40,994 nucleotides of DNA, taken from the NCBI GenBank assembly GCA_013215945.1, contig JABSOM010000020.1, forward strand, positions 1-40,994. Direction: 5' to 3'. The translations under genes and the position numbers were made by a program. Shown piece after piece: positions 3,301 through 26,998 of this stretch. A model generated the notes under the pieces. That model saw nothing but the letters and a program-made list of their open reading frames with translations. It was not told the DNA's origin and did not search any database. Position 1 is the stretch's first letter, and each line of letters opens with the position of its first letter. Origin of the DNA: Campylobacteraceae bacterium. Lineage in GTDB: Bacteria > Campylobacterota > Campylobacteria > Campylobacterales > Arcobacteraceae.

Positions 3301-5990
3301 ATGTTACAGGTCTTAATAATGATCTTACTTTTGTAAGTGAGAGAGCTGGATATGATAATGTGGTTGGATATTATGAAATAGATGAGAATGGAAAGCCTAT
3401 AGGAGAAGCAACCATAGTTGTGGATAATCAAAATGGAATGAATTCTGGGGCGCATTTAAGTGATTTAAATCCTAATACAAACTATGGATTCTTTATAATT
3501 GCTGGTTATAATGCAGATGATACTGTTGATGAAAACAGTGTAATTACTTTTGATACTACAAGTTCAACGCCTGTATTATTAATAGATGGAACTGCTTCAT
3601 CTTTTCCTGTGTATTATGATAACCCTGTTTTTAATAGCGATGGAAAAGATCATTTTGTGTTTACTTCTGATGGACAAGGTGGAACAACTATTAAGATTGA
3701 AGATTTACCTAATCTAGGAGATGCTGATTTTGATGATTTAGTATTACATCTTAATTATGAAATTAGTGATAAAACATTGGCTGATTTTGCAGGTAAGGTT
3801 ACACTTGATATTGAAGTGGTAAGTTACAATGTTGAAAAAGGAATGGGTAATATAGAGGATAAAATCAAGGAAATTGAATTAAATGATGATACTATTATTA
3901 TAAATGGTGATTTAAATAATGAAATGGAATTAGGTTCTAGTGATGATGTGGTTTATATAGAAGGTAATACGAATGAAAAAATAAAGCTAGAAGCAGGTGA
4001 TGATACTCTAGCTATAAGTGGGAATGTAAATAAAGAAATTAAGACAGGCTCTGGTGATGATGCGGTTTACATTGAAGGCAATACAAATGAAAAAATAAAG
4101 CTAGAGGCAGGTGATGATACCCTAGTTGTAAGCGGGAATGTAAATAAAGAAATTAAGTCAGGCTCTGGCGATGATAGAGTTTACATAGAAGGTAATACGA
4201 CTGATAAAATAAAATTAGAATCTGGCAATGATATGATAACGATCAATGGTGCAATTAACAAAGACATTGATGGTGGTTCTGGAATAGATTCAATTGTATT
4301 AGGCTCATATACAAAAGCAGATTATGACAATAATGTAAATGGAATTCAAAACAAACTTAAAAACTTTGAAAACTTTAAATTCTCTGATGGTGAAACTATT
4401 GGAGATAGCAGCGTTTTTAATGAATCAGAAGTGACATATGAAACTACTATTTCTATTCTTGCTACACAAGAAGACATAAATGAGACTTTATCTGAAGTAA
4501 GTATTCTTATTCCTAATAATGTAAGTATGGTTAAAGATTCAAATGGAAATGAATTAAGTATTGAAGATGGAAGAGTTTCAATAGAAGTGCAAACAGGTGT
4601 ACAAGCATCTATTATACTGATTAGTGGGAGTTCTTTAAGCAGCAGTGAAATTAATACAATAGAAGGAAGTGTTACTACAAGAGAAAGTAATGGAGATACA
4701 AGTACTGCAACAGATTCAATTGAGAGCAGTACAACAACGATGGATATTGTTAAAGAAGGTAGTGATATTGTAAATCTTGGTAATGATGGTGATGGGCATG
4801 CTTATGGATATGCACCTGATGATATTGAAACACAAGTATTTGATTTTGGAGTATTAAACGCAGGAAAAACAGTTACTTTAACATTTGATTCTACTGCTAC
4901 AGGAAGCTGGGATAATGCGGAAACTGCATCTTCAATAACGGTTGATAAGTTTATTATTTCAATTAATGATGTAGAAGAAGAAACCTTGACATACAATCAT
5001 TATACAGATTCAAATAATACATGGAATGAATCCAAAACCTATACGGGTGTATTAAACGAAGAAGGAAAGCTTGAGGTTTCATTTAACGTAAAAAGTACAT
5101 ACAATCAAGAAATTGTTAATATTACAGATATAGAAGTTGAGTTAAAAGATGCAATTGTTGACGGTACGTATTCAACACCTATTATTCTTGATTTAGACAA
5201 TGATGGTATTGAAACTATATCTTTAGCAAATGGTGTGAAATTTGATATTGATAATGATGGAGATATTGATCTTACTGGTTGGGTTGGAGCTGATGATGGT
5301 TTATTGGTTCGAGATATTAACAATGATGGAATTATTAATGATGCCTCTGAATTATTTGGTGAAGAAACAATTAAAGAAGATGGAACAAAAGCCAGTGATG
5401 GATATGATGCTTTAAGAGAACTGGATTCAAATGAAGATGGCGTTATTAATGCAGATGATGATGCTTTTTCTGAACTTAAAATTTGGCAAGATTCAAATTC
5501 AGATGGTATTACTGATGAAGGTGAATTAATGGGTCTTAAAGAAGCAAATGTTTCTGAAATATCTTTAGGCACTATTACTAGTAATGAAACATCAAATGGT
5601 AATGTTATTGGTCTTAAATCAAGCTATTTAGACAATGATGGAAACGAAAAAGAAGCAGCTGATGTTTGGTTTGAAATAGAAGCAAAAGATTTAGTTCTTG
5701 ATGATGATATTGATTTGGTTTCTGCAAAAGTAGAACCTGAAGTTGATAAAATGGCTTTAAATAATCAAAATGTTGATTTAAAAGGTGTCTTATTAGCTGA
5801 TGAAGAAGAATATATAATTTTTGGAGAAAATGAAAACAGTATATCTTTGCAAGACAGTGATTTAAAATGGGTAAAACAAGAAGAAAATGAAATCATTGAT
5901 GATGAAGAATTTAAAGTCTTTGAGAGTACTTTTTCACCCAACTCACATATAAAAATATTTATAGATAATGATATTGATGTGGATTTATAG
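1..5990 (+). CDS. Giant RTX/cadherin-like repeat adhesin, C-terminal part (5' partial)
   Basis: The frame is open from base 3 to the stop at 5988-5990, giving 1,995 visible residues with no plausible true start, so the gene begins left of the window. Order of modules: the end of one and then a complete cadherin-like repeat of about 101 residues; two copies of a 287-residue block (Ig-like domains ending in acidic GSGDD/GDGTD calcium-type motifs); a cadherin/VCBS-type stretch with DAPVIDAL and NDTDTNGD motifs; a DUF4114-like domain (about 3330-3770, ending DADFDDLVLHL); seven 19-residue GDD repeats; and a C-terminal part with several DxNxDG EF-hand-like loops (about 5185-5530). This composition is typical of calcium-dependent, type I secreted surface adhesins used in attachment or biofilm. 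No secretion genes lie in the window. Family assignment is firm; ligand and exact role are unknown. Confidence 0.9.
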   Translation, partial: GGDLPDYKVSAASSTGDTGSISIDPTNTTDVDDGLTVTVDSQLASITEGTATTSTIVGDAESTNPDNSTITFSIDDTTNYAIDPTSGVITLTTAGAKIVNDGGDLPDYKVSAASSTGDTGSISIDPVDTDVLPEITINDTILTNDNTPTFSGTSENTDGDFTLNVNGEDYTVTPEANGTWSFTIPAEDALDDGNYTATISGSDAQGNNVSANDALTVDADAPDINELKITDIVDTNGDHSEIIMSGTADEAGNTIKLYDEDDNYLGSTTVLENGTWSFDITNLENTPRNDNEFFKVTETDAAGNVTAETPAVHFNAFTWNNAQSDDFDDYALAGSGDDTFTFNDNDVNDSIVFDGGDGTDTVILSGNREDFTISINDKGEIVIVDNINTTGDTIIVRNTEVFKFNDGTFTAETVLSGDLPEISINDIGLTNDDTPTFSGTSQNTDGDFTLSVNGKDYNVTPESNGTWVFTIPAVDALADGNYTATIKGSDGQGNQTSASDSLSIDATAPDINDLKITDIVDNEGDYSSVTMKGTGAEVGNTVTLYNEDGDAVGTTEVQSDGTWNLSIENQSGTPVNDNEFYSVTETDSVGNTTAQTNSTHYWHGSSSNINTESSDDYVMTGSGNDRINTDDVLSGTNENGYVTSNNDDTNDSLVIDAGDGTDTVSFGKDIEEYTITTDSTGNVIVTESIESDSNDDGKGDVTELRNVETIEFKDGTYDVASAVFTSYNVAPDAVDDNTIQESVFLGTKEEDGSISQWGAQNTDGSLTYSTENGNEITISATRDGSSTSIGFMDDDLDNQKGVGIGAVGGNDAQLEQNETVTIDFGGTILAGAEIGLAGLGGHFVSTHSADAKATWEAYDNNGNVVASGELQQDDDASVMTNSFTVGVAFSSIEFSLNANINSNFTIQYVDATYVASDITTQEDTSLIIQASDLLANDTDTNGDTITITNVTASTNTHGTVSLDDNGNVVFTPEENYSGVASFTYTISDGNGKSDTATVTVQVNSVNDAPVIDALSTQIVVEDGTLVGQITASDAEGDTLSFTIKAGADIPNGLIVNTDGSYTFDASSYDSLNEGQYANILVPIVVSDGNGGISETTLNINVTGLNNDLTFVSERAGYDNVVGYYEIDENGKPIGEATIVVDNQNGMNSGAHLSDLNPNTNYGFFIIAGYNADDTVDENSVITFDTTSSTPVLLIDGTASSFPVYYDNPVFNSDGKDHFVFTSDGQGGTTIKIEDLPNLGDADFDDLVLHLNYEISDKTLADFAGKVTLDIEVVSYNVEKGMGNIEDKIKEIELNDDTIIINGDLNNEMELGSSDDVVYIEGNTNEKIKLEAGDDTLAISGNVNKEIKTGSGDDAVYIEGNTNEKIKLEAGDDTLVVSGNVNKEIKSGSGDDRVYIEGNTTDKIKLESGNDMITINGAINKDIDGGSGIDSIVLGSYTKADYDNNVNGIQNKLKNFENFKFSDGETIGDSSVFNESEVTYETTISILATQEDINETLSEVSILIPNNVSMVKDSNGNELSIEDGRVSIEVQTGVQASIILISGSSLSSSEINTIEGSVTTRESNGDTSTATDSIESSTTTMDIVKEGSDIVNLGNDGDGHAYGYAPDDIETQVFDFGVLNAGKTVTLTFDSTATGSWDNAETASSITVDKFIISINDVEEETLTYNHYTDSNNTWNESKTYTGVLNEEGKLEVSFNVKSTYNQEIVNITDIEVELKDAIVDGTYSTPIILDLDNDGIETISLANGVKFDIDNDGDIDLTGWVGADDGLLVRDINNDGIINDASELFGEETIKEDGTKASDGYDALRELDSNEDGVINADDDAFSELKIWQDSNSDGITDEGELMGLKEANVSEISLGTITSNETSNGNVIGLKSSYLDNDGNEKEAADVWFEIEAKDLVLDDDIDLVSAKVEPEVDKMALNNQNVDLKGVLLADEEEYIIFGENENSISLQDSDLKWVKQEENEIIDDEEFKVFESTFSPNSHIKIFIDNDIDVDL
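396..2170 (+). repeat. Two copies of a ~287-residue Ig/RTX module
   Basis: Copy one (396-1256) and copy two (1257 to about 2170) both begin LPEI[TS]IND and run in the same order: TPTFSGTS, TDGDFTL, NGTW, DGNYTATI, DAPDIN-like linker, LKITDIVD, VTETD, GSG[DN]D, DGTDTV and an FK[FD]DGT ending. They are clearly duplicated but diverged in DNA and protein, unlike the identical 101-residue repeat tail. The second copy carries a short insertion near GSGNDRINTDD. Confidence 0.85.
3885..4283 (+). repeat. Seven tandem 19-residue GDD repeats (57 bp unit, 114 bp higher-order unit)
   Basis: Seven consecutive 19-residue units follow the pattern [DN]D-x-hydrophobic-x-[IV]-x-G-[ND]-x-N-[KE]-x-[IM]-x-x-x-[GS]-[GS], starting at DDTIIINGDLNNEM. 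The units alternate in type (VYIEGNTNEKIKLEAG, then TLAISGNVNKEIKTGSG), so the DNA shows a 114 bp higher-order period with matching GTT codons at 3951, 4065 and 4179. This looks like a calcium-binding beta-roll-type stack, but differs from standard 9-residue RTX units. Confidence 0.85.
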
Positions 5991-9776: not shown

Positions 9777-11039
9777 ATGATACTTGCCTCCTCTTTATTT
9801 ATAATAACACTTATTTTTGTTATTTGGCAACCTAAAGATCTTCAAATAGGAACATCTGCTGTTATTGGGGCAATTGTTGCTTTACTTTTAGGAGTGGTAT
9901 CATTTTCGGATGTACTAATTGTTAGTTCTATAGTTTGGGATGCCACCTTAAGTTTTATTGGAATCATTATTTTATCTATGGTTTTAGATGAAATTGGTTT
10001 TTTTGAATGGTGTGCTTTGAAAATGGCAAAAGTATCGAATGGAAATGGACACAAAATGTTTGTTTATTCTATTTTATTAGGGGCTTTTGTTTCTGCTATT
10101 TTTGCAAATGATGGAGCAGCACTAATATTAACGCCTATTTTATTAGCAAAAATGAAAATACTAAAACTTAATATGAAAAGTATTGTTGCTTTTTTATTAG
10201 CAGGGGGATTTATATCTGATTCTGCTTCTTTACCTTTTATTTTCTCTAATCTTACTAATATTGTTACCGCAAATTATTTTAATATTGGTTTTATGGAATA
10301 CCTAAGTATTATGATTGTTCCTTATCTTGTTAGTGTTGTAGCTTCAATAGTTTTTTTATGGTTAATTTTACGAAAAGATATACCTAAAGAAGTTGATATT
10401 TCTTTATTAAAAGAACCTAGAACAGCTATTAAGAACATAACATTATTTTATATTTCTTGGGTATTTTTACTTGTATTGTTAGTGGGATACTTTATTGGTG
10501 ATATTTATGATTTACCAGTAAGTGTATTTGCTTTAGGGGGAGGATTATTATTTTTACTTATTGCAACAGCATTTAAAAGTGTTAAACCCCTACATATTAT
10601 AAAAGAAGCTCCATGGCAAATTGTATGGTTTTCTATTGGTTTGTATATTGTTGTGTATGGTTTGAAAAATGCTGGTTTAACGGATTACCTAGAAGTAGTT
10701 TTAAAAAACATAGCATCCCAAGGTGATGTATTTGCTATTGTTGCTACTGGTTTTTTATCGGCATTTTTATCAGCCATTATGAATAATATGCCAACCATTA
10801 TGATTATGGATATAGCTTTGGAAAATATACCTAATACGGCTTTAGTATATGCAAATATTATTGGTTCAAACTTAGGACCCAAAATGACACCTTTTGGTTC
10901 TTTAGCAACACTTCTTTGGTTACATGTATTGGCAAAAAAAGGAATTAATATCTCTTTTTTACAATACAGTAAATTTGGATTTATTATAACGCCACCTGTG
11001 TTACTAATCGTATTACTTGCTTTGGCTTATAGTTATTAA
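9777..11039 (+). CDS. arsB: Arsenite efflux membrane protein ArsB
   Basis: This 420-residue, highly hydrophobic protein fits the ArsB branch of the ion transporter superfamily, with about 11-12 membrane segments. Conserved blocks include the early GAIVALLLGVVSF, FANDGAALILTP (near residue 110), SDSASLPFIFSNLTNI (about 150), NNMPTIM and IGSNLGPKMTPFGSLATLLW in the C-terminal half. It exports arsenite or antimonite across the inner membrane and can be powered by ArsA, whose gene is in the same operon. It is not the shorter Acr3 type. Confidence 0.93.
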   Translation: MILASSLFIITLIFVIWQPKDLQIGTSAVIGAIVALLLGVVSFSDVLIVSSIVWDATLSFIGIIILSMVLDEIGFFEWCALKMAKVSNGNGHKMFVYSILLGAFVSAIFANDGAALILTPILLAKMKILKLNMKSIVAFLLAGGFISDSASLPFIFSNLTNIVTANYFNIGFMEYLSIMIVPYLVSVVASIVFLWLILRKDIPKEVDISLLKEPRTAIKNITLFYISWVFLLVLLVGYFIGDIYDLPVSVFALGGGLLFLLIATAFKSVKPLHIIKEAPWQIVWFSIGLYIVVYGLKNAGLTDYLEVVLKNIASQGDVFAIVATGFLSAFLSAIMNNMPTIMIMDIALENIPNTALVYANIIGSNLGPKMTPFGSLATLLWLHVLAKKGINISFLQYSKFGFIITPPVLLIVLLALAYSY

Positions 11040-14572: not shown

Positions 14573-17500
14573 ATGAATATAAAACTACTCAAATTTGCTT
14601 TCTTAGCAGTAATATTTTGTAATGTTGCTGTTGATATTTCGCATAAAATTCTACTACAAAACATAGCTTTCAAAATTTTTGATGGCAGTGAACAAGTTGT
14701 ATTAATTTCAATAATTAATGCATTAATACTGATACCTTTTTTACTTTTTTTCTCAATATCTGCTTTTTTAAGTGACAAATATGATAAAAAAAATGTCTTA
14801 GTTTATGGTGCCGTTTCGTCTTTTATATTATCAATATTTATGGTAATTGCCTATGCTATAGGAAGCTTTAATTTAGCAATGTTTGGAATATTTTTATTGG
14901 CCATTCAAAGTGCTATTTATTCTCCTGCTAAGTTTGGAATTATTATAAGTATTTATAAAAAAGAGAATTTATCTTTAGGAAATTCTTTTGTGCAATCAAT
15001 TTCAATGATTGCAATTTTATTTACTATGGGTTTATTTTCTTATATTTTTGAAACCTTATACGGAATTAATTCCTATGATTTAATTTCTTCTAAAGATGAG
15101 CTTTTAAATAAATTTTTGCCACTGACTTATTATATTGTTCTTATTGCTTTGTTTGAACTTAGTATTTCTTTTTTAATTTTAAAGAAAATAGATACTGGTT
15201 TTAAAGTGGATAAAAAGATTGTTTTTAACAGAGATGATTATTTTAAAGCCAAACTTTTAAAAAAGAATATAAAAGAGATTACAAATACAAGAGTACTTTT
15301 ATTATCTATTTTTGGAATTTCCATTTTTTGGGCTATTTCTCAAGGAATGTTGGCTGTATTTCCTGCTTATGCAAAAGAATATTTAAATATTACCAGTGTA
15401 TTTGTGATTAACGCAATTCTTGGAGCAGCAGGTTTTGGAGTTGCTTTTGGATCTTTTTTATATACAAGAATTTCAAAAAACTACATAGAAACGGGAAGTA
15501 TCCCAATAGCAGCAGCAGGTTTATGTTTAATGATATATTTAAGTGTAAATGTTGATTCTTCTTTTTCACTGGCGCTTGTCTTTTTTGGTTTTGGTGTTTG
15601 TGGGGGATTATTTGTTGTTCCTCTAAATTCTCTCTTACAATTTAATGCTAAATTTGAAAAACTAGGTACGGTACTAGCTGGAAGTAACTTTTTTCAATCT
15701 TTATTTATGGTCTTAGTTTTAGTTCTTACAACAGTTGTTTCTTTTAATGGTTTAAACCCTAAAAGTACTATTTATTTATTATTGATTTTAACAATACTTG
15801 GCGCAATTTATACGGTAAAAAAACTTCCTTTATCTATGGTTCACTTTTTTGTTAAATTTGTTGTTGGTTTAAAATATAAATTAGAAGTTACAGGTATCTC
15901 AAATATCCCTTCTACTGGGGGCTTACTTCTTTTAGGGAACCATGTTTCTTGGTTAGACTGGGCTATTATTCAAATGGCGACGCCTAGAGATATCAAGTTT
16001 GTAATGGATAAAGGTATTTATAATAAGTGGTATTTAAAATGGTTTTTAAACTTTTTTGAAGTGTTACCTATTTCATCAACTTCTAGCAAAAGCAGCATTA
16101 ATCAAATTGCAAAAGAATTAGATGAAGGAAATGTAGTTGTATTGTTTCCCGAAGGTACAATTACTAGAAATGGTCATTTAGGAGAGTTTAAAAAAGGTTT
16201 TGAACTTATTTTAAAACAAACAACAAAAGATGTAAATGTGCATGTTTTTTATATCAGAGGTTTATGGGAATCTATGTTTTCACGTGCAAATAAAAAATTT
16301 ATTGAATCGTATCGTACAAATATAGTTACTGTTTCTTTTTCCCAAAAAATTCCTAAAGAATTAGCAAAAGCAGATTATGTTAAACATAGGGTAATGGATT
16401 TAACTATTGAGTCATGGACTGAGCATATAAAAGTACTTAAAAGTATTCCCGAAGAAATATTTAATACCATGAAAGAAGTTAAAAATAATCTTATTGTTGC
16501 TGATTCTACGGGAATGGAACTAACAGGATATAAGTTTTTAACGGTTGCTATTTTATTTAAAAATCTACTTAAAACAAGAATTAAGGGTCAAAATATTGGA
16601 CTTTTAATTCCTTCTTCTGCTGCAGGTGCTTTTATTAACACTTCTGTTTTAATGTTAGGAAAAACGGCAGTTAATATTAATTATACGGCTGATGTGGAAT
16701 CTTTGCTTAAATGTATTGCTAGTGCAGAAATACAATCTGTGGTAGCTTCTAAAAAATTCATTCAAAAACTAAAAGAGAGAGGAATGAATTTGGATCCTTT
16801 ATTGGAAAAAGTAGAAGTATTTTATTTAGAAGATTTAAAACTTGAGATTAAAAAAATATCAGGCTTGATGACTTTTTTATCTGTCAAAATCTTCCCTGCC
16901 ATGCTTTTAAAAGCCTTACACGTTAAAAAAGTACCTATTTCATCTAATGCCCTTATAATGTTCTCATCTGGCTCAGAAGGCAGTCCTAAAGGAATAGAAC
17001 TGTCACATATGAATATTTTAGGAAACACGCAACAAATAGCTTCTGTACTTAATGTAAATGATGATGATACTGTTGTTGGTTCTTTGCCTTTATTTCATGC
17101 TTTTGGTATTTGTGTTACTACTTTTTTCCCTTTAATTGAAGGTATTAAATTAGTGGCTCATCCAGATCCTACTGATGGTTATGAAGTTGGGAAATTGGTT
17201 AATAAATATAAAGCAACAGTTATGTGTGGAACATCAACATTTTTTAGACTGTATATTATGAATAAAAAAGTTCATCCTTTAATGTTTGAATCTTTACGGT
17301 ATACCGTTGCAGGTGCTGAAAAGTTATCCCAAAAAGTTAGAGATGATTTTAAAAGAAAATTTGGAAAAGTCATTATTGAAGGTTATGGAACTACCGAAAC
17401 CTCGCCTGTTGCTGCTTGTAACTTGCCTGATATTTTAACCCCTGAACTTGATTTACAAGTGGGTAATAAAATTGGAACAGTAGGAATGCCACTTCCTGGA

Positions 17501-18070
17501 ACCTCTATTAAAATAGTTGATCCTCATACTTTTAAACCTTTAGATATTGGGGAAGAAGGAATGGTACTCATTGGTGGGGTTCAAATTATGAAGGGTTATT
17601 TAAACAATGAAGCTAAAACAAACTCTGTTATAAAAAGTATTGATGGTAAATCTTGGTATGTTACAGGCGATAAAGGTAAGTTTGATAGTGATGGTTTCTT
17701 AAGCATTGTTGATAGGTATTCACGTTTTGCAAAACTTGCAGGTGAAATGGTTTCTTTAGGGGCTATTGAAGAAAAATTATCCTTTCTAATTGATAAAGAA
17801 GAAGTGGAATATGTAGCAACTACAGCGCCTGATGAAAAAAAAGGTGAAAAAGTTATTGTACTTATATCAGGACTAAATCAAGAAGAAATAAAAGAGTTAA
17901 AAACAAAAGTGATAAAAGCCTTTGATAATAAATTAATGATTCCATCTTCTTATGAAATGGTAGATGAGATTCCAAAATTAGGCTCTGGGAAAAAAGATTA
18001 TGGAAAAGCAAAAAAACTTTTAATTTCTAAAACACAGTCTTATGATAGCTGTTTTAAGATGGATTTATAA
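14573..18070 (+). CDS. LplT-PlsC-acyl-ACP synthetase fusion (Aas-type lysophospholipid repair)
   Basis: One 1,165-residue frame joins three modules. Residues about 1-405 are a 12-segment MFS transporter like LplT, which moves lysophospholipids across the inner membrane. Residues about 430-620 are a PlsC acyltransferase with HVSWLD (His457, Asp462) and FPEGT (525-529). Residues about 640-1150 are an AMP-forming acyl-ACP/acyl-CoA synthetase with FSSGSEGSPKG (797-807), GYGTTETSPV and TGDKGKFDSDGF motifs. Together they would import, activate acyl groups for and re-acylate lysophospholipids, as separate LplT and Aas do in E. coli. All key motifs are intact. An AAGGA precedes the ATG. The fusion itself is known in several Gram-negative groups. 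Confidence 0.93.
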   Translation: MNIKLLKFAFLAVIFCNVAVDISHKILLQNIAFKIFDGSEQVVLISIINALILIPFLLFFSISAFLSDKYDKKNVLVYGAVSSFILSIFMVIAYAIGSFNLAMFGIFLLAIQSAIYSPAKFGIIISIYKKENLSLGNSFVQSISMIAILFTMGLFSYIFETLYGINSYDLISSKDELLNKFLPLTYYIVLIALFELSISFLILKKIDTGFKVDKKIVFNRDDYFKAKLLKKNIKEITNTRVLLLSIFGISIFWAISQGMLAVFPAYAKEYLNITSVFVINAILGAAGFGVAFGSFLYTRISKNYIETGSIPIAAAGLCLMIYLSVNVDSSFSLALVFFGFGVCGGLFVVPLNSLLQFNAKFEKLGTVLAGSNFFQSLFMVLVLVLTTVVSFNGLNPKSTIYLLLILTILGAIYTVKKLPLSMVHFFVKFVVGLKYKLEVTGISNIPSTGGLLLLGNHVSWLDWAIIQMATPRDIKFVMDKGIYNKWYLKWFLNFFEVLPISSTSSKSSINQIAKELDEGNVVVLFPEGTITRNGHLGEFKKGFELILKQTTKDVNVHVFYIRGLWESMFSRANKKFIESYRTNIVTVSFSQKIPKELAKADYVKHRVMDLTIESWTEHIKVLKSIPEEIFNTMKEVKNNLIVADSTGMELTGYKFLTVAILFKNLLKTRIKGQNIGLLIPSSAAGAFINTSVLMLGKTAVNINYTADVESLLKCIASAEIQSVVASKKFIQKLKERGMNLDPLLEKVEVFYLEDLKLEIKKISGLMTFLSVKIFPAMLLKALHVKKVPISSNALIMFSSGSEGSPKGIELSHMNILGNTQQIASVLNVNDDDTVVGSLPLFHAFGICVTTFFPLIEGIKLVAHPDPTDGYEVGKLVNKYKATVMCGTSTFFRLYIMNKKVHPLMFESLRYTVAGAEKLSQKVRDDFKRKFGKVIIEGYGTTETSPVAACNLPDILTPELDLQVGNKIGTVGMPLPGTSIKIVDPHTFKPLDIGEEGMVLIGGVQIMKGYLNNEAKTNSVIKSIDGKSWYVTGDKGKFDSDGFLSIVDRYSRFAKLAGEMVSLGAIEEKLSFLIDKEEVEYVATTAPDEKKGEKVIVLISGLNQEEIKELKTKVIKAFDNKLMIPSSYEMVDEIPKLGSGKKDYGKAKKLLISKTQSYDSCFKMDL

Positions 18071-19170: not shown

Positions 19171-21711
19171 CTAAACTTTGCTTTTCACACAAAGTAAGTT
19201 TATAATTTCATCTACATTAGAGGCAAAATTACCATTTTTTTCAATAAGAAATAAATCTCTAACTTTCCCTCTGCTGGCATACATTTTTGCACTTTCAATC
19301 TCAATATTATAATCATCTAAAATATTTGTAATAAAAGCCAAGAGACCTTTTTGATCAGCCGTTTTAACTTTTAAAGAAGCTAAAAAAGAAGTGTGATTAA
19401 TGTCAACAATGATATCCTTTTTATTAATTATAGGTACAATCAATTTTGTTTTTTTACTCATGTCAAAAGAATTTTTAATGATATCTTCAATATACAATAA
19501 ATCACTGTCATCTATTTTTTGAGTAAACTTGATTTCAAAACATTTTTTTTCATCGTAAAGCTTAAAAATATTCATAGATCCAATGTCTAGAAATTCCAAT
19601 TTACCTAACAAATACCCAATATTTAAAGCTTTTGAACGAATAATTTGTATACTTAATACATCTTCATTTTTAATTCTATAAATGTAATCTTGGACATCTT
19701 TTGCTTTAATAGCAAGATCCAAAATATCTTTTGCTTTTAATTGTAAAAACAATTGTGAAGAAGCAATATAGGAGATTTTTCGTTTCATTATTACACTTAA
19801 TTTATTGTACTGTGGAAGTTTTTTTATTGCATTTATTTTAGAAAGTTTTCTTGCACTTTCACTTAATAATTCTGTATTTTCAAAAGCAGGAAGTGTTTGA
19901 TAATACAGCTCTTTTAATAAAGCAGAAGTAGCACTGGAGTAAATATTTTTTCCAACGGCTGAAATATCACAATAGGTTAAAACATATAACATATCTAAAA
20001 AACGTTTATCTTGAACAATACCTGTAAAGTTAAGAATTATTTTCTCAGAGTAAACATCTTCATTGGTTGCATACATAGACATTTGATTGTGATACCTAAT
20101 AAGTTTGGAAATAATTTGAATACTAGAGGGCTCAAAACTCAAAAAAGATCCAAAACTTTTGAAGAGTTTTTCTCCTATTTCATGATGATCTTTTTTTCTT
20201 CCTTTTCCAATATCATGAAATAAGGTGGCTATTTTTGCTAGTTTTTGATCTGTTTTACTCATTTTATCAAATACATTTTTGACAAAAGGATCTTGTATAT
20301 TTTCAAAATAAGTTATATTTAAAATAGAATGTAAATCAACAGGTAAGTCATGGTAACCATCAAATTGTGGTTGATGGGTTATTTTTTTGCAAACAGGTAA
20401 TACCAATCTAAAGAGACCTGCTTGATACAAGAGATTAAGTAAAATACTTAATGATTCTTTTAATAATATACTCTTAATTAGTTTTTTATGCTCAGTAGTG
20501 AGTTCTGAAGGATGCTTTGTTTTTTTTAAGTAATAAACATAGGAAGCATCAAATTCTTCTACTTCTTTTGGTAATAATAATAACTCTTTTAAAATATAAG
20601 CAAGGTTTTTACTTTTCAAATGATACGAACAATAAATTTTATTCTCTATTATATAAATACTCTTTTTATATCTGTATTTTTTTAATAAAGGTATATTTTC
20701 TTTTTTAAACTCAACTTTTCTTGTAATTTTTTTGATCATAATAGATGTGAAACTATGAATATTATGCAAATACTCTAGGGTTTTTGCCATTAATTGTCGC
20801 TCTTTTGTATGCAAAGGGGTATTTTTAAATCCAAGCCTAGTACTTAGTTCAGGAAGCACATCAAAGTTAATAATATCCAATTTTTTACCTGCAATATTGT
20901 GTAAGTGATTTCTAATTTGGAAAATATATTCCAGTGATATTCTGTATTTCTGATATTCTTCTTCAGTAAAAAGAATATTCATTAGATCTCTTACTTTTGT
21001 TACTCCATAAATAATATTTGCAAACCAAAAAAGTGTATTCGATTCTCTCATTCCTCCATAACCATCTTTAATATTGGCTTGCATTTTTAAGGGATATTTT
21101 TTTAATCGCAAGCTATGTTCAAGGTTTTTTTCAAGAATAAAATCTAATTGTTTTGTTTTTCTTATTTTAAAAAGAACATTTTCATATGAATACCATAAGT
21201 GTTTTGAGCCATATATTAAACGAGATTCAATAAGCGAGGTTTTAATAGTGACATCTTCTTTTACACTTGTTTGTACATCTTTTAGTTCATGTACCCTTGA
21301 GCCTAGTTTTATCCCACAATCCCATGCTAAAGTAATGAATTCTTCCATAACTTCTTTTAGGTTATAGCCTTTGATATCTTCATAAAGAATCATCAAATCA
21401 ATATCAGAATAAATACATAACTGTTCTCGTCCATAAGAACCAAGAGCAATTAAACAAATAGGTACAGAAGAACCCATAGGTAAATAAGAACCAAAATGTT
21501 TTCGCAAAATATATTTATACAAAGCAATAATAAATTTATCTGTTTGTTTGGTATGTTTAACTAAAAAATCTTTACCAATACTGTTTTGAAGAATTGTATC
21601 AATAGATGAAATATAGTTATTGATATAGGATTTAAATACCTTTGATACCTCAAAATTATCTGCATTATTGGAAATTAGATTTTCAATATCAATATTTAAA
21701 GCGGTGATCAT
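19171..21711 (-). CDS. glnD: PII uridylyltransferase/uridylyl-removing enzyme GlnD
   Basis: The 846-residue protein shows the full GlnD order: nucleotidyltransferase motif GSYGREQL with SDID (91-105), a helical middle domain, an HD phosphohydrolase site (LFHDIGKGRKKDHHEIG, near 495-510), and two C-terminal ACT domains (about 665-740 and 775-840) that sense glutamine. It uridylylates PII when nitrogen is low and removes UMP when glutamine is high. Its likely substrates, two PII proteins with Tyr51, are encoded about 3 kb away. Its start overlaps the stop of the preceding ATPase gene by 4 bases, so it is coupled to the sensor/ATPase unit. Confidence 0.95.
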   Translation of the reverse strand: MITALNIDIENLISNNADNFEVSKVFKSYINNYISSIDTILQNSIGKDFLVKHTKQTDKFIIALYKYILRKHFGSYLPMGSSVPICLIALGSYGREQLCIYSDIDLMILYEDIKGYNLKEVMEEFITLAWDCGIKLGSRVHELKDVQTSVKEDVTIKTSLIESRLIYGSKHLWYSYENVLFKIRKTKQLDFILEKNLEHSLRLKKYPLKMQANIKDGYGGMRESNTLFWFANIIYGVTKVRDLMNILFTEEEYQKYRISLEYIFQIRNHLHNIAGKKLDIINFDVLPELSTRLGFKNTPLHTKERQLMAKTLEYLHNIHSFTSIMIKKITRKVEFKKENIPLLKKYRYKKSIYIIENKIYCSYHLKSKNLAYILKELLLLPKEVEEFDASYVYYLKKTKHPSELTTEHKKLIKSILLKESLSILLNLLYQAGLFRLVLPVCKKITHQPQFDGYHDLPVDLHSILNITYFENIQDPFVKNVFDKMSKTDQKLAKIATLFHDIGKGRKKDHHEIGEKLFKSFGSFLSFEPSSIQIISKLIRYHNQMSMYATNEDVYSEKIILNFTGIVQDKRFLDMLYVLTYCDISAVGKNIYSSATSALLKELYYQTLPAFENTELLSESARKLSKINAIKKLPQYNKLSVIMKRKISYIASSQLFLQLKAKDILDLAIKAKDVQDYIYRIKNEDVLSIQIIRSKALNIGYLLGKLEFLDIGSMNIFKLYDEKKCFEIKFTQKIDDSDLLYIEDIIKNSFDMSKKTKLIVPIINKKDIIVDINHTSFLASLKVKTADQKGLLAFITNILDDYNIEIESAKMYASRGKVRDLFLIEKNGNFASNVDEIINLLCVKSKV

Positions 21712-22457
21712 AATAATTCTTTATGTATTTCTAATTTTTTTCTTAAAGTAATTCTGTTTAACCCCAAGTGTTTGGCCATTTGTACTTGTGATTTGTGCTT
21801 TTTTTGTGCTGCTTTTAATAAGGGAGCTTCAAATAAATACAAAAAGTCTTTGTAGGCATTCTCTCCTTCCATATTATCAAGAACATATTTTTCAATTAAC
21901 ATCATAATTTCATTTTCCCCAATAGACTCAAAGAGGTGAGATAAAAAAATCGATTTTCTTAAACTATGAGCATTATCAGAAGTATTGATAATTAGTTTAT
22001 TGGGTTTTGATTCTTGCCCTAATATTATAGAAGCTTCTTTAGAGAAAGCTGTGGCAAGTGGTTTAATATCTTCTTTTCTTTTATCTAAGTTTGGAATGTC
22101 AAGGCTTAAAGAAAAAAGATCTGCAATTTTTTGTGACAAATTATCTTTAGTGGTACAAGCAATTATTCGAATGTTATTCTCTTCTACCCAAGAAAGGAAT
22201 AAATCAGTATTAGAAATATCTTCAATATGCTCTATAATAATGCAGGTGTTAGATAAGCCCAATACTTTGTCTTGAATATCTTTTTGCAAAACTTTTGCAG
22301 TATAAAGATTGGCATTTTCATTGATATATCTTGCAAGAGATTTTTTTCCTACTCCAGATGACCCTTTAATTAAAACATTGACATCTAAGTGTTTTAATAA
22401 ATTGGCTGAATTTTTTATTTCTTTCATGATATTGGATCTGGCGATAAACTCTTGCAT
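21708..22457 (-). CDS. Degenerate NtrC-like AAA+ ATPase with Fis-type HTH
   Basis: The 249-residue protein looks like a trimmed sigma-54 activator. It has Walker A GSSGVGKKS (32-40), a weak Walker B-like CIIIEHIED (72-80) in place of GGTLFLDEI, and a C-terminal Fis helix-turn-helix (about 215-247: KSQVQMAKHLGLNRITLRKK). The GAFTGA loop that contacts sigma-54 is absent, since only about 30 residues separate the Walker motifs, and there is no receiver domain. It therefore probably binds DNA or a partner without activating sigma-54. It lies between a PDC-like membrane protein (28 bases upstream) and glnD (4-base overlap), pointing to nitrogen control. I do not recognise a named family. Confidence 0.7.
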   Translation of the reverse strand: MQEFIARSNIMKEIKNSANLLKHLDVNVLIKGSSGVGKKSLARYINENANLYTAKVLQKDIQDKVLGLSNTCIIIEHIEDISNTDLFLSWVEENNIRIIACTTKDNLSQKIADLFSLSLDIPNLDKRKEDIKPLATAFSKEASIILGQESKPNKLIINTSDNAHSLRKSIFLSHLFESIGENEIMMLIEKYVLDNMEGENAYKDFLYLFEAPLLKAAQKKHKSQVQMAKHLGLNRITLRKKLEIHKELL

Positions 22458-22485
22458 ATTTTTTAACCTTTTAAAAATTTATATA

Positions 22486-23358
22486 TTATACAATTCTTTT
22501 ATTCTTTTTATTATGAAAGTAAATAAATATTGATAAAGATATTATGATTAAAGAAACCCCAATTATAAGATATAAAGCATTTATCATTTGTGTATAATCT
22601 CCAAGAGCTATTTTAAATACTAACATTAAAGACTCAATAGATAAAGCAATAATGATTGTAATCAAAAATTTAATAAACATTTCGCTTTGTGTTTTTGAAT
22701 TTGAGGTGTAGGATTTAAAGAATACTTCTTGTTCTAAAATAGTTTTTGCCAAATCAAAAATGGCTAATGCTAGGGTTAAAGATACTATCGGTTTAAATAT
22801 CATTTCTAGGGAAAACTGATTGGAACCTATAAAAGCGCATAAAAAAGAATACATAGAATAAAATACAATAAATACAGAAAGCAAAGCCAAAGAAAAACCA
22901 GCGAAACAATAAAAGGCTTTGGTGAAGGTATGAAAAGGTTTGTTAAGTTCTATTAAGTTTAATTTTTCCAATAAAGCTTCAAGTTTAAAATCCATAAATA
23001 AAATAGAATCATTTGTTTTAATAGTAACAGTAATACAAACATTATTACTGGCTGCACTAATATATGCAGGTGAGAAATACAGTAAATTGCCTTTAAAATT
23101 TAGCTTATTGCATAAATAAGATCTGTCTTGTTGTTGTAATAAGTTTATGCTTTTGTTTCTAAATATATTAGGGGATGTTTGCATTTTTGTGTTTTTATCT
23201 ACTATATAAATAAGTTCCAAGGATGAAAAAGTTGAGAATAATTTTTTATAGTTGTTTTTATTAATAAATTTTTCTATAGGTATGTTTGAAATACTTTCTT
23301 CTATAAAACCCTCTATCTTGGTTTTATTTCTTTCATATAAAGTGATTAGTTCTTCCAT
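22486..23358 (-). CDS. PDC-like sensor domain membrane protein with four TM segments
   Basis: The 290-residue protein starts with a soluble region (about 1-140) bearing PDC/Cache-type marks: LELIYIVDKNTKMQTSPN (48-64), DRSYLCNKL (78-86) and YFSPAYISAASNNVCITVTI (94-113). Four predicted membrane segments follow (about 150-174, 188-206, 228-251 and 260-281) and the tail is basic. There is no kinase, methyl-accepting, GGDEF or other output domain, and no signal peptide or membrane segment before the sensor. A strong AAGGAGT precedes the ATG. It leads the unit that contains the Fis-like ATPase and glnD, so it may feed a small-molecule signal into nitrogen regulation. That role is inference. Confidence 0.7.
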   Translation of the reverse strand: MEELITLYERNKTKIEGFIEESISNIPIEKFINKNNYKKLFSTFSSLELIYIVDKNTKMQTSPNIFRNKSINLLQQQDRSYLCNKLNFKGNLLYFSPAYISAASNNVCITVTIKTNDSILFMDFKLEALLEKLNLIELNKPFHTFTKAFYCFAGFSLALLSVFIVFYSMYSFLCAFIGSNQFSLEMIFKPIVSLTLALAIFDLAKTILEQEVFFKSYTSNSKTQSEMFIKFLITIIIALSIESLMLVFKIALGDYTQMINALYLIIGVSLIIISLSIFIYFHNKKNKRIV

Positions 23359-23417
23359 TATTACTCCTTAATTAGTGAAATTATAGCTATTCTGTTTAAT
23401 AAATATATAAAATAATG

Positions 23418-23462
23418 TATAAAATATATACAACTATCTCATAAAATATGCTATAAAATATA
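23418..23462 (+). promoter_or_regulatory. Three ATAAAATAT direct repeats in the divergent amtB1 promoter region
   Basis: The motif ATAAAATAT occurs at 23419-23427, 23441-23449 and 23453-23461 in the 140-base gap between the sensor gene and amtB1. Start-to-start spacings are 22 and 12 bases, close to whole helical turns. It could be a regulator array or reflect AT-rich promoter DNA. Confidence 0.4.
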
Positions 23463-23498
23463 TTATACTTTTCTAAGAAAAAAATTTAAAGGGCGGAA

Positions 23499-24713
23499 AT
23501 GGAAAATTTTGCGGACGTAAAATATATATTAGATGGTTTTTTATTGCTATTTGCTGGAATATTAGTAATGTGGATGGCAGCAGGTTTTGCAATGTTAGAA
23601 GCAGGACTTACAAGAAGTAAAAATAATGCAACGGTTCTCACAAAAAATATTGCTTTATTTGCAATTTCTTGTATTATGTTTTATTTTGTTGGATACAACT
23701 TTATGTATGGAGATGGAAATGCATTTATAGGTTCTGGTTCTATGTTAAGTGGGAAAACAGATGAAGCTATGGGTTATCCCGTAATGGCAGATTTCTTTTT
23801 TCAAATGGTATTTGTAGCAACAGCTGCTTCAGTTATTTCAGGAACGATTGCTGAGAGAATGAAATTATGGCCATTCTTAATTTTTGTTACTGTTTTATCG
23901 GCACTTATTTATCCTATTCAAGGACATTGGACATGGGGTGGAAGTGAATTAGGTGGACTATTAAGTGGTTTCTCTGATTTTGCTGGTTCTACTATTGTTC
24001 ATAGTGTTGGTGGATGGGCTGCATTAGCTGGTGTTATTGTATTAGGTCCTAGAATTGGGAAATACGGAAAAAATGGAAGCGTAAGACCAATTCCAGGTTC
24101 TAACTTGAGTTTAGCAACGCTTGGAACATTTATTTTATGGATGGGTTGGTTTGGATTTAATGGTGGGTCTCAATTAGCTATGGGTTCTAAAGCAGATATT
24201 AATGGAATTGCTATGGTAATTGCTGATACGAATATGGCTGCTTGTGCAGGTGCATTAGCAGCAGCATTATTAACGCAACTTATTTATAAAAAAGTGGATT
24301 TAACTTTTGTATTAAATGGGGCACTTGCAGGTTTGGTTTCTGTAACTGCAGGTCCTGATTTAGGAATCATTATTTCTTTAATTGTAGGTGCTGTTGGTGG
24401 AATTATTGTTGTACTTGTTGTTCCTTTATGGGATAAAGTTAAAATTGATGATCCCGTTGGAGCGTTAAGTGTTCACTTAGTAGCAGGTATTTGGGGAACA
24501 TTAGCTGTAGGTATTTTTAATCCTGAGGTATCAATTGTTGCACAACTTACTGGAATAGTAGTTATTGGTGCATTTGTATTTATTTCTTCTTTCATTGTAT
24601 GGAAACTTTTAGATTTACTTATTGGTATTAGAGTTAGTGAAGAAGTTGAAATTGAAGGTTTAGATATACATGAAACAGGATTAGAGGCTTATCCAGAATT
24701 TAAAAGATCATAG
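23499..24713 (+). CDS. amtB: Ammonium transporter AmtB (first copy)
   Basis: The 404-residue protein has 11-12 membrane segments and the Amt signatures: AGFAMLEAGLTRSKN near the N-terminus, AGSTIVHSVGGWAALAG with the first pore histidine His168, DDPVGALSVHLVAGIWGTLAVG with the second pore histidine His326, and the C-terminal GLDIHETGLEAYPEF tail that helps couple to PII. It conducts ammonium or ammonia across the inner membrane. It is followed by a terminator and then glnK1. The ribosome binding site reads GGGCGG, unlike the AAGGA of its neighbours. Confidence 0.95.
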   Translation: MENFADVKYILDGFLLLFAGILVMWMAAGFAMLEAGLTRSKNNATVLTKNIALFAISCIMFYFVGYNFMYGDGNAFIGSGSMLSGKTDEAMGYPVMADFFFQMVFVATAASVISGTIAERMKLWPFLIFVTVLSALIYPIQGHWTWGGSELGGLLSGFSDFAGSTIVHSVGGWAALAGVIVLGPRIGKYGKNGSVRPIPGSNLSLATLGTFILWMGWFGFNGGSQLAMGSKADINGIAMVIADTNMAACAGALAAALLTQLIYKKVDLTFVLNGALAGLVSVTAGPDLGIIISLIVGAVGGIIVVLVVPLWDKVKIDDPVGALSVHLVAGIWGTLAVGIFNPEVSIVAQLTGIVVIGAFVFISSFIVWKLLDLLIGIRVSEEVEIEGLDIHETGLEAYPEFKRS

Positions 24714-24803: not shown

Positions 24804-25177
<374 letters not shown>

Positions 25178-25211: not shown

Positions 25212-25261
25212 TTTGTATAGAATATATACAAAACTCTGGATAATAAAATCCATAAATTAAC

Positions 25262-25267
25262 TATACT
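25262..25267 (+). promoter_or_regulatory. -10-like TATACT before amtB2
   Basis: TATACT lies 29 bases before the amtB2 ATG, after the glnK1 terminator. An AAGGA ribosome binding site follows. No clear -35 box is seen. Confidence 0.4.
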
Positions 25268-25296: not shown

Positions 25297-26481
25297 ATGA
25301 ATTTAGATTCTATACCTTATATACTTGACACCTTTTTTGCAATTTTTGCAATGACGTTAATAATATTCATGGTGCCTGGTTTTGCAATGCTTGAAGCTGG
25401 GATTGTACGTACAAAAAATGTTGCTGCTGTTTTAACTATTAATACTCTTATATATGCTTTAGCCTCACTTTCTTTTTTATTAATTGGTTATGAAATAGCT
25501 TTTGGCGAATTTGGAAGTACCACTATGAGTAAATGGGCTGCATTTATGTTTCAAATGGCTTTTGTTGGAAAAGTTGTTAATATTATGTCAGGTGGGGTAA
25601 GTGAGAGAGCAAGAATTGTTCCTTTAGCTATTTTCACAGTTATTATGGCTTCTATTGTTTATCCTTTAATTGTAAATATTAGCTGGGGAAAGAACTTTTT
25701 AGCAGATAGTTTTCTAGAACTTTCTATGTATGATTTAGCTGGTTCAACAGTAATTCATAGTACTGGAGGTTGGGCATTATTAGCAGCCATATTAATAATT
25801 GGAAGCAGAAGAGGAAGATATCCCAAAAATGGTGGCATTAGAGTTATCCCTGCTTCTAATATTCCTCTAGTAACGCTGGGCGCTTTTCTTTTATGGATTG
25901 GATGGTTTGGTTTTAATGGAGGTTCTGTTGGTTCTATTTCTTCAAAAGAAAGTGCTGATGCGGTTGCTTTAACCATTATGAACACCAATACAGCTGGTTT
26001 AGCAGGAGCTTTAATGGTTGCGATTATTATGTATATTAAATACAAAAAACTAGATATTACAATGATTTTAAATGGTGCTTTGGGTGGTTTAGTTTCAATT
26101 ACGGCAGGTCCTGATTTATACGATATTTATACGCCTATTTTAATTGGTGCCATTGGTGGATGTATTGTTGTTATTGGAGTATCTATGTTTGATAAATTAA
26201 AAATTGATGATCCCGTTGGTGCTTTATCAGTGCATTTATTAAATGGTATTTGGGGAACTGTAGCTGTTGCTATTTTTGCTTCAAGTAATACTATTAGTTT
26301 TTGGGGCCAAATAAAAGGAATTTTACTAATAGGTAGTTTTGCTTTTATTTCTTCTTTTATCATTCTTTTTATTATAAATAAAATAATGCCATTACGAGCC
26401 AGTGATGAAGATGAATTGGAAGGTTTAGATGTTAATGAATGTGGTTTGGAAGCTTACCCTGAATTTAAACGTGCATTTTAG
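25297..26481 (+). CDS. amtB: Ammonium transporter AmtB (second copy)
   Basis: This 394-residue protein is a diverged paralogue of the transporter encoded at 23499. It keeps PGFAMLEAGIVRTKN, the two pore histidines His154 (GSTVIHSTGGW) and His313 (DDPVGALSVHLLNGIWGT), and the GLDVNECGLEAYPEF C-terminal tail. The region equivalent to about residues 60-100 of the first copy is shorter. The start has AAGGA at good spacing and follows its own terminator-promoter region, so the second pair can be regulated apart from the first. Relative affinity of the two channels cannot be read from sequence. Confidence 0.94.
   Translation: MNLDSIPYILDTFFAIFAMTLIIFMVPGFAMLEAGIVRTKNVAAVLTINTLIYALASLSFLLIGYEIAFGEFGSTTMSKWAAFMFQMAFVGKVVNIMSGGVSERARIVPLAIFTVIMASIVYPLIVNISWGKNFLADSFLELSMYDLAGSTVIHSTGGWALLAAILIIGSRRGRYPKNGGIRVIPASNIPLVTLGAFLLWIGWFGFNGGSVGSISSKESADAVALTIMNTNTAGLAGALMVAIIMYIKYKKLDITMILNGALGGLVSITAGPDLYDIYTPILIGAIGGCIVVIGVSMFDKLKIDDPVGALSVHLLNGIWGTVAVAIFASSNTISFWGQIKGILLIGSFAFISSFIILFIINKIMPLRASDEDELEGLDVNECGLEAYPEFKRAF

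Positions 26482-26599: not shown

Positions 26600-26997
<398 letters not shown>

Positions 26998-26998
<1 letters not shown>

Follow-up and report, generated by a model that had tools for sequence, protein, structure and literature searches.

The DNA analyzed here (the window; 40,994 nucleotides of contig JABSOM010000020.1, assembly GCA_013215945.1, hereafter G000) comes from a Campylobacteraceae bacterium of the family Arcobacteraceae and carries, in one leftward unit, genes for a PDC-like membrane protein (the PDC protein), a 249-amino-acid protein that joins an AAA+ domain to a Fis-type helix-turn-helix (HTH) (the AAA+ protein), and the PII uridylyltransferase GlnD. The computational evidence presented below indicates that the AAA+ protein is very probably the transcription regulator of nitrogen assimilation in Arcobacteraceae, where it would replace NtrC and sigma-54. 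The protein most likely acts on transcription because it is a predicted DNA-binding regulator whose inferred operator, the palindrome TGTATA-N5-TATACA, marks a nitrogen regulon. A preliminary description of the locus had correctly recognized that the three genes form one leftward unit, opposite in direction to two amtB-glnK pairs, with exact coordinates and spacing (28 bases between the PDC and AAA+ genes, and a 4-base overlap, which reads ATGA, between the AAA+ gene and glnD). Its suggestion that this is a nitrogen-related regulatory locus not described before is supported by the present findings; the literature collection that we searched contained nothing on glnD or amtB regulation in Arcobacter.

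The AAA+ protein and the loss of sigma-54

The AAA+ domain opens the protein and the Fis-type HTH closes it. Both parts pass the Pfam cut-offs, the former as Sigma54_activ_2 and Sigma54_activat (PF14532, PF00158) and the latter as HTH_8 (PF02954), a cut-off that no other protein of G000 passes. The best Foldseek matches of the AlphaFold model (mean pLDDT 89.5) are NtrX, ZraR, and NtrC1. An hhalign alignment with Escherichia coli NtrC covers only residues 139-465 of the latter, leaving out the receiver domain; the GAFTGA stretch of NtrC falls into a gap, and at the Walker B site, EHIE is aligned with DEI, so that DE is replaced with E-H. Across 26 members from Arcobacteraceae genera, Walker A is retained, Walker B is degenerate, the GAFTGA loop is absent from the alignment, and conservation is highest in the HTH. 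Judged by these features, the AAA+ protein is a derivative of NtrC that has neither the receiver domain nor the GAFTGA loop.

The genomic setting is in keeping with this anatomy. A search for RpoN (TIGR02395) found none in G000, a genome that is 98.67% complete, whereas 4 of 14 control genomes scored, and no sound sigma-54 activator was detected in G000 (best E 5e-8). Arcobacter butzleri has no RpoN and no NtrB/NtrC, an absence that its genome paper termed remarkable (PMC2147049), and RpoN is lost across all Arcobacter species examined (PMC9321776). With neither GAFTGA nor RpoN present, a role of the AAA+ protein as a sigma-54 activator was rejected.

A palindrome that marks nitrogen genes

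The palindrome TGTATA-N5-TATACA was first noticed by side-by-side reading of amtB upstream regions. When 29 such regions were searched de novo for palindromes of any 6-N(3-8)-6 form, it was recovered in 10 of 15 genera, compared to 3 for the best of 100 dinucleotide shuffles. The 3.24 Mb genome of G000 contains six exact copies, against one of the reversed control. One of these lies between the divergent amtB1 and PDC genes, 66 bp and 57 bp ahead of their respective ATG codons, another precedes amtB2, and three more are found 67 bp upstream of glnA (L215), 62 bp upstream of narK, which encodes a NarK-type transporter, and 64 bp upstream of the nas-type nitrate reductase operon (L217). The remaining copy (C4:206541, L216), 220 bp upstream of a cbb3 oxidase gene, near ccoN, may be due to chance and was set aside because the reversed control also yields one match. 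In relatives, the palindrome precedes glnA, gltB, gdhA (NADP-glutamate dehydrogenase), and a third or further amt gene for an ammonium transporter, as well as genes for a quinohemoprotein amine dehydrogenase and a TorF-type porin. Copies also precede the AAA+ gene and the PDC gene themselves. Most of the genes preceded by the palindrome are standard nitrogen-assimilation genes.

The position of the palindrome relative to the putative promoters is constrained as well. In 57 of 104 site-gene pairs, a TATAAT-like -10 element starts 30-32 bp after the palindrome (shuffles: mean 5.0, maximum 11), and further offsets, about 20-22 bp at some PDC promoters and 41-42 bp at the amine dehydrogenase gene, are about one helical turn apart from these. 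The predicted -10 boxes on the two sides of the divergent site in the window lie 31 and 30 bp away, and the palindrome is therefore almost symmetric between the two promoters. Site centers near the predicted -52, at times -42 or -62, suggest an activator that works with the sigma-70 polymerase.

What ties the palindrome to the AAA+ protein is their joint distribution, their covariation, and the geometry of the site. In a sample of 104 Arcobacteraceae genomes, where one AAA+ match at E 8e-4 was left uncounted, genomes with the AAA+ gene contain a mean of 5.19 exact sites vs 0.65 in the 23 others (p 1e-11), and within a single genus (g2), the means are 5.41 with the gene (n=17) and 0.07 without it (n=14; p 1e-6), p-values that are indicative only and overstate independence because related sequences are not independent. 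A control pattern does not differ between the two groups of the family (1.14 vs 0.74). Since some genomes of this genus have neither the gene nor the operator, their nitrogen genes must be controlled otherwise. Site counts also vary with the recognition helix: genomes with Ile at the first variable position of the helix (Ile-type, NRITLRKK) have a mean of 5.0 sites and those with Asn there (Asn-type, NRNTLRKK, which resembles GRNTLTRK of NtrC) 1.2. Some genomes in the Asn-type sample were picked because they have many sites, a bias that runs counter to this contrast. A separate de novo search of Asn-type amtB and AAA+ loci recovered TGATTA-N5-TAATCA in 6 of 14 (maximum of 3 in 200 shuffles), a palindrome of the same 6-5-6 geometry with a different half-site. 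The Ile and Val types cluster almost wholly in one part of the AAA+ protein tree. The G and C of the TGTATA palindrome are 14 positions apart, as they are in Fis sites, whose core spans 15 bp (PMC4784862).

Several observations weigh against this interpretation. No signal-input domain is identifiable ahead of the AAA+ part of the 249-amino-acid protein. The exact amtB palindrome is missing in 5 of the 15 genera within the 200 bp tested. The losses of the AAA+, glnD, and PDC genes are mutually correlated, and those in g2 may represent one or two events. In Sulfurimonas-type families, the AAA+ orthologue belongs to a housekeeping cluster, where it is flanked by slyD and fabD, and no excess of TGTATA sites was seen there; three Asn-type genomes of the slyD type (G396, G443, and G261; L238, L239, and L240) have 4-6 exact TGTATA sites, and most of their relatives have 0-2. 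Finally, the position of the sites alone is no proof of activation.

On balance, we propose that a dimer of the AAA+ protein would bind TGTATA-N5-TATACA through its Fis-type HTH, at sites whose centers lie about 52 bp ahead of sigma-70 type starts, or roughly a helical turn nearer or farther at some promoters, and most likely would recruit or stimulate the housekeeping RNA polymerase under nitrogen scarcity. The predicted targets are amtB-glnK, glnA, gltB, gdhA, and the nitrate-assimilation and amine-use genes, along with the operon that encodes the AAA+ protein itself (PDC, AAA+, glnD), which would be controlled through the operator it has in common with amtB1. The nitrogen signal might come from PII/GlnD or from direct binding of a nucleotide or metabolite to the AAA+ remnant, the candidates being GlnK or GlnK-UMP, given that glnD shares the operon and is nearly always found together with the AAA+ gene, a nucleotide at Walker A, and the PDC protein. 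A bolder extension, which we consider quite possible if not probable, is that a single receiver-less, sigma-70-acting NtrC remnant runs the whole nitrogen response of Arcobacteraceae after the loss of sigma-54 and NtrB/NtrC, with its AAA+ core reading nitrogen/energy status or PII directly, and with the operator rewritten via one recognition-helix residue (Asn/Ile; TGATTA/TGTATA) in the course of regulator-regulon co-evolution.

Table 1. Genes and predicted elements of the locus, in window positions (used throughout for the window)
Feature	Position	Strand	Details
glnD, PII uridylyltransferase	19171-21711	-	846 aa
AAA+/Fis regulator (candidate)	21708-22457	-	249 aa; apparent NtrC-derived AAA+ remnant with C-terminal Fis-type HTH
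Fis-type HTH (HTH_8)	21729-21836	-	recognition helix NRITLRKK; Ile236 codon 21750-21752
Walker A, residues 32-40	22338-22364	-	GSSGVGKKS; G32, G37, and K38 invariant (23-sequence alignment)
PDC-like membrane protein	22486-23358	-	290 aa
Putative -10, PDC-AAA+-glnD operon	23380-23385	-	TATAAT; starts 30 bp after palindrome
Candidate operator, divergent	23416-23432	.	TGTATA-AAATA-TATACA; common to amtB1 and PDC-AAA+-glnD promoters
Putative -10, amtB1	23464-23469	+	TATACT; starts 31 bp after palindrome; read from sequence, offset as in relatives
amtB1, ammonium transporter	23499-24713	+
glnK1 (PII)	24839-25177	+	start ATG 24839; Tyr51 retained
Candidate operator, amtB2	25214-25230	+	TGTATA-GAATA-TATACA; 66 bp ahead of amtB2 ATG
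Putative -10, amtB2	25262-25267	+	TATACT; starts 31 bp after palindrome
amtB2, ammonium transporter	25297-26481	+
glnK2 (PII)	26660-26998	+	start TTG 26660; Tyr51 retained

Several further features of the palindrome-bearing loci and of their counterparts lacking the palindrome were recorded. In several genera, a 640-amino-acid ankyrin-repeat protein with its own copy of the palindrome is encoded beside amtB1/PDC (L045 10831-12768, L072, L148, L153, L155, L159). In G000, a fusion of a PP2C phosphatase with a Ser/Thr kinase is encoded between narK and the nas operon (L217 4684-6309), and a similar PP2C-kinase protein is encoded beside PDC in another genus (L047 7183-8895). The amtB2 leaders of two genomes without the AAA+ gene (L066 ~4924-4975, minus strand; L078 ~10430-10480, plus strand) have no TGTATA palindrome and contain GTCCAGCGCTGG and, after it, AAAAGGAC close to the ribosome site; this leader may be a replacement control element. 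Rfam yielded no match for a structured RNA, either at the locus in the window or in the amtB upstream regions of genomes that lack the AAA+ gene.

Gene order, the membrane protein, and competing explanations

The AAA+ gene was detected in 81 of the 104 genomes, glnD in 92, and PDC in 76. The comparison of gene order across Arcobacteraceae, which the preliminary description had proposed, bears out the part of its claim that concerns the AAA+ gene: in 64 of the 80 genomes that hold both, the starts of this gene and of glnD are no more than 3.5 kb apart, a linkage that is not due to chance, and in the exceptions examined, the AAA+ gene usually adjoins amtB2-glnK and, in several genera, also a gene denoted c19. 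Furthermore, glnD is present in 80 of the 81 genomes with the AAA+ gene vs 12 of the 23 without it. The PDC gene, by contrast, proved separable. It is missing from 11 genomes with the AAA+ gene and lies at a distance in 9 others, and 6 genomes without the AAA+ gene have it; in several Arcobacteraceae genera, it is far off or separated from the AAA+ gene by a histidine-kinase gene on the opposite strand. Among the best 80 PDC loci phylum-wide, 47 are in unrelated contexts, with none of the other genes of the locus nearby, and in Sulfurimonas/Sulfurovum-type genomes, PDC is widespread without linkage to the AAA+ gene. In a distant genome (L174), PDC-AAA+-c19 adjoins amtB-glnK, and glnD is not there. 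Going by its own copies of the predicted operator, the PDC gene is a co-regulated, if mobile, member of the regulon.

The label of the PDC protein itself is tentative. The sequence match is below the cut-off (dCache_1, E=0.045; PDB profile, E 0.0022), and the fold provides modest support, with YkuI (the best, E 5.6e-6) and the Tlp3 dCache domain (E 4e-4) as Foldseek matches, at low TM-scores and with a model pLDDT of 76. An N-terminal alpha/beta domain (residues 1-140) is followed by four C-terminal transmembrane helices (approximately residues 145-284), and no transmembrane-like segment was found ahead of residue ~135-140; the charges of the loops and a positively charged C-terminal tail favor an N-in/C-in topology, which is the probable one. 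By Foldseek, the protein may resemble the C-terminal domain of YkuI and the dCache domains of Tlp3 and others in its alpha/beta PDC-like fold but differs from them in having no N-terminal transmembrane segment, four C-terminal transmembrane helices, and no recognized output domain. Because the N-terminal membrane segment is missing and the domain is probably cytoplasmic, this is not a classical extracytoplasmic sensor.

These observations bear directly on the original proposal that the PDC and AAA+ proteins form a sensor pair that feeds an additional signal into the modification of PII by GlnD rather than into transcription. The common operon, the 4-base overlap of the AAA+ gene with glnD, and the nearly invariable presence of glnD in genomes with the AAA+ gene are what one would expect of such a pair. 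However, the Fis-type HTH is strongly conserved in the AAA+ protein, the presence of which predicts a DNA palindrome that in turn marks a nitrogen regulon, and the PDC gene is missing or distant in some genomes with the AAA+ gene and present in others without it. We regard this proposal as very improbable, and the notion that PDC and AAA+ constitute one module was discarded in view of the gene-order and co-occurrence data. Another explanation, in which the PDC protein is a membrane-bound signal-input partner that releases or holds the AAA+ regulator depending on the level of ammonium or a metabolite, gains from the conservation of the PDC-AAA+ order in many genera, from the presence of an operator at each of the two genes when they are apart, and from the arrangement in the distant genome L174, where the two adjoin amtB-glnK without glnD. 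The same absences and distances, along with the unlinked PDC genes of Sulfurimonas/Sulfurovum-type genomes, speak against it and make it a rather doubtful explanation.

The identity of the factor that binds the palindrome and the sign of its action can also be questioned. The tie between the AAA+ protein and the sites is statistical and positional, and the other DNA-binding proteins were not surveyed singly, so that another transcription factor might bind TGTATA-N5-TATACA while the AAA+ protein merely travels with the regulon. Yet the geometry of the site fits a Fis-type dimer, the AAA+ protein is the sole HTH_8 protein above the cut-off in the genome, loss of the sites follows loss of the gene within one genus, and the half-site shifts with the recognition-helix residue, all of which renders a different factor improbable. 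If the AAA+ protein does bind the palindrome, it might mainly repress under nitrogen excess: TyrR-type regulators work both ways (PMC4374768), and the site at 23416 is common to two divergent promoters. Most sites, however, are located 30-32 bp upstream of the -10 box and other groups of sites about a helical turn away, an activator-like phasing that keeps them outside the -10 element itself, and nitrogen-scavenging genes are usually activated on limitation, as established for NtrC. Predominant repression accordingly appears unlikely, and activation by the AAA+ protein at sigma-70 promoters is the interpretation we favor.

The neighborhood of the AAA+ gene and of glnD contains additional features. 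The c19 gene encodes a 230-amino-acid PAS-like protein, adjoins the AAA+ gene and often amtB-glnK (L055, L056, L057, L058, L076, L111, L125), and is found at loci from deep lineages as well as from another family. The c19 protein matches no Pfam family above the cut-off, and its identification as a degenerate NtrB found no support (hhalign E 0.11 over 37 columns); it may be the ancestral input partner. The glnD product passes the Pfam cut-offs for GlnD_UR_UTase and HD, with the nucleotidyltransferase region detected, and of the ACT domains, only the C-terminal one is matched, below the cut-off. In one genome (G003; L070 4581-7111), several stops seem to interrupt glnD; both the AAA+ gene and the PDC gene of this genome are intact. 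A three-part fusion of a major facilitator superfamily transporter, an acyltransferase, and an AMP-binding ligase (window 14573-18070) is kept beside glnD in many relatives. A record titled as a Helicobacter pylori PMSS1 metagenome-assembled genome (L167, CAMCYD010000019.1) has the PDC locus of an Arcobacteraceae genome (G050:C19); the title is probably wrong.

Relationship to known nitrogen regulators

The findings reported here put forward one gene, one operator, and one regulon as a concrete candidate system by which most Arcobacteraceae would control nitrogen assimilation. They also add a probable descendant of sigma-54 activators that would work without both a receiver domain and sigma-54, and suggest a natural change of specificity within a Fis-type HTH.

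Among the closest known counterparts is E. coli NtrC (the glnG product, acting with NtrB and sigma-54), whose AAA+ domain falls into the same family. NtrC likewise has a Fis-type HTH and an operator of similar dyad form, controls glnA and amtB-glnK, and is functionally linked to PII/GlnD. The AAA+ protein differs from NtrC in having no receiver, no GAFTGA, and a degenerate Walker B, and in belonging to a genome without sigma-54; its predicted half-site is the AT-rich TGTATA, as opposed to TGCACC of NtrC, and the promoter spacing is of the sigma-70 type. NtcA of cyanobacteria is likewise a sigma-54-free nitrogen regulator that activates amt and glnA but is a member of the CRP family with the site GTA-N8-TAC, unrelated as a protein to the AAA+/Fis regulator. 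Further parallels exist among the NtrC proteins of Rhodobacter capsulatus and Caulobacter, which are GAFTGA-less and regulate nitrogen genes through sigma-70 promoters (PMC10274813). These retain a receiver that is phosphorylated by NtrB, whereas the AAA+ protein has none and its host has no sigma-54. TyrR, too, combines a GAFTGA-less AAA+ domain with a Fis-type HTH and acts on sigma-70 promoters; it controls aromatic amino-acid genes and has an N-terminal ACT-PAS input region for which there is no equivalent in the AAA+ protein. The TyrR box, TGTAAA-N6-TTTACA (PMC4374768), resembles the TGTATA half-site, with a spacer of 6 as against 5 here. By its anatomy and the spacing of its operator, the AAA+ protein most likely belongs with these GAFTGA-less, sigma-70-acting derivatives of bacterial enhancer-binding proteins, of the kind represented by TyrR and R. 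capsulatus NtrC.

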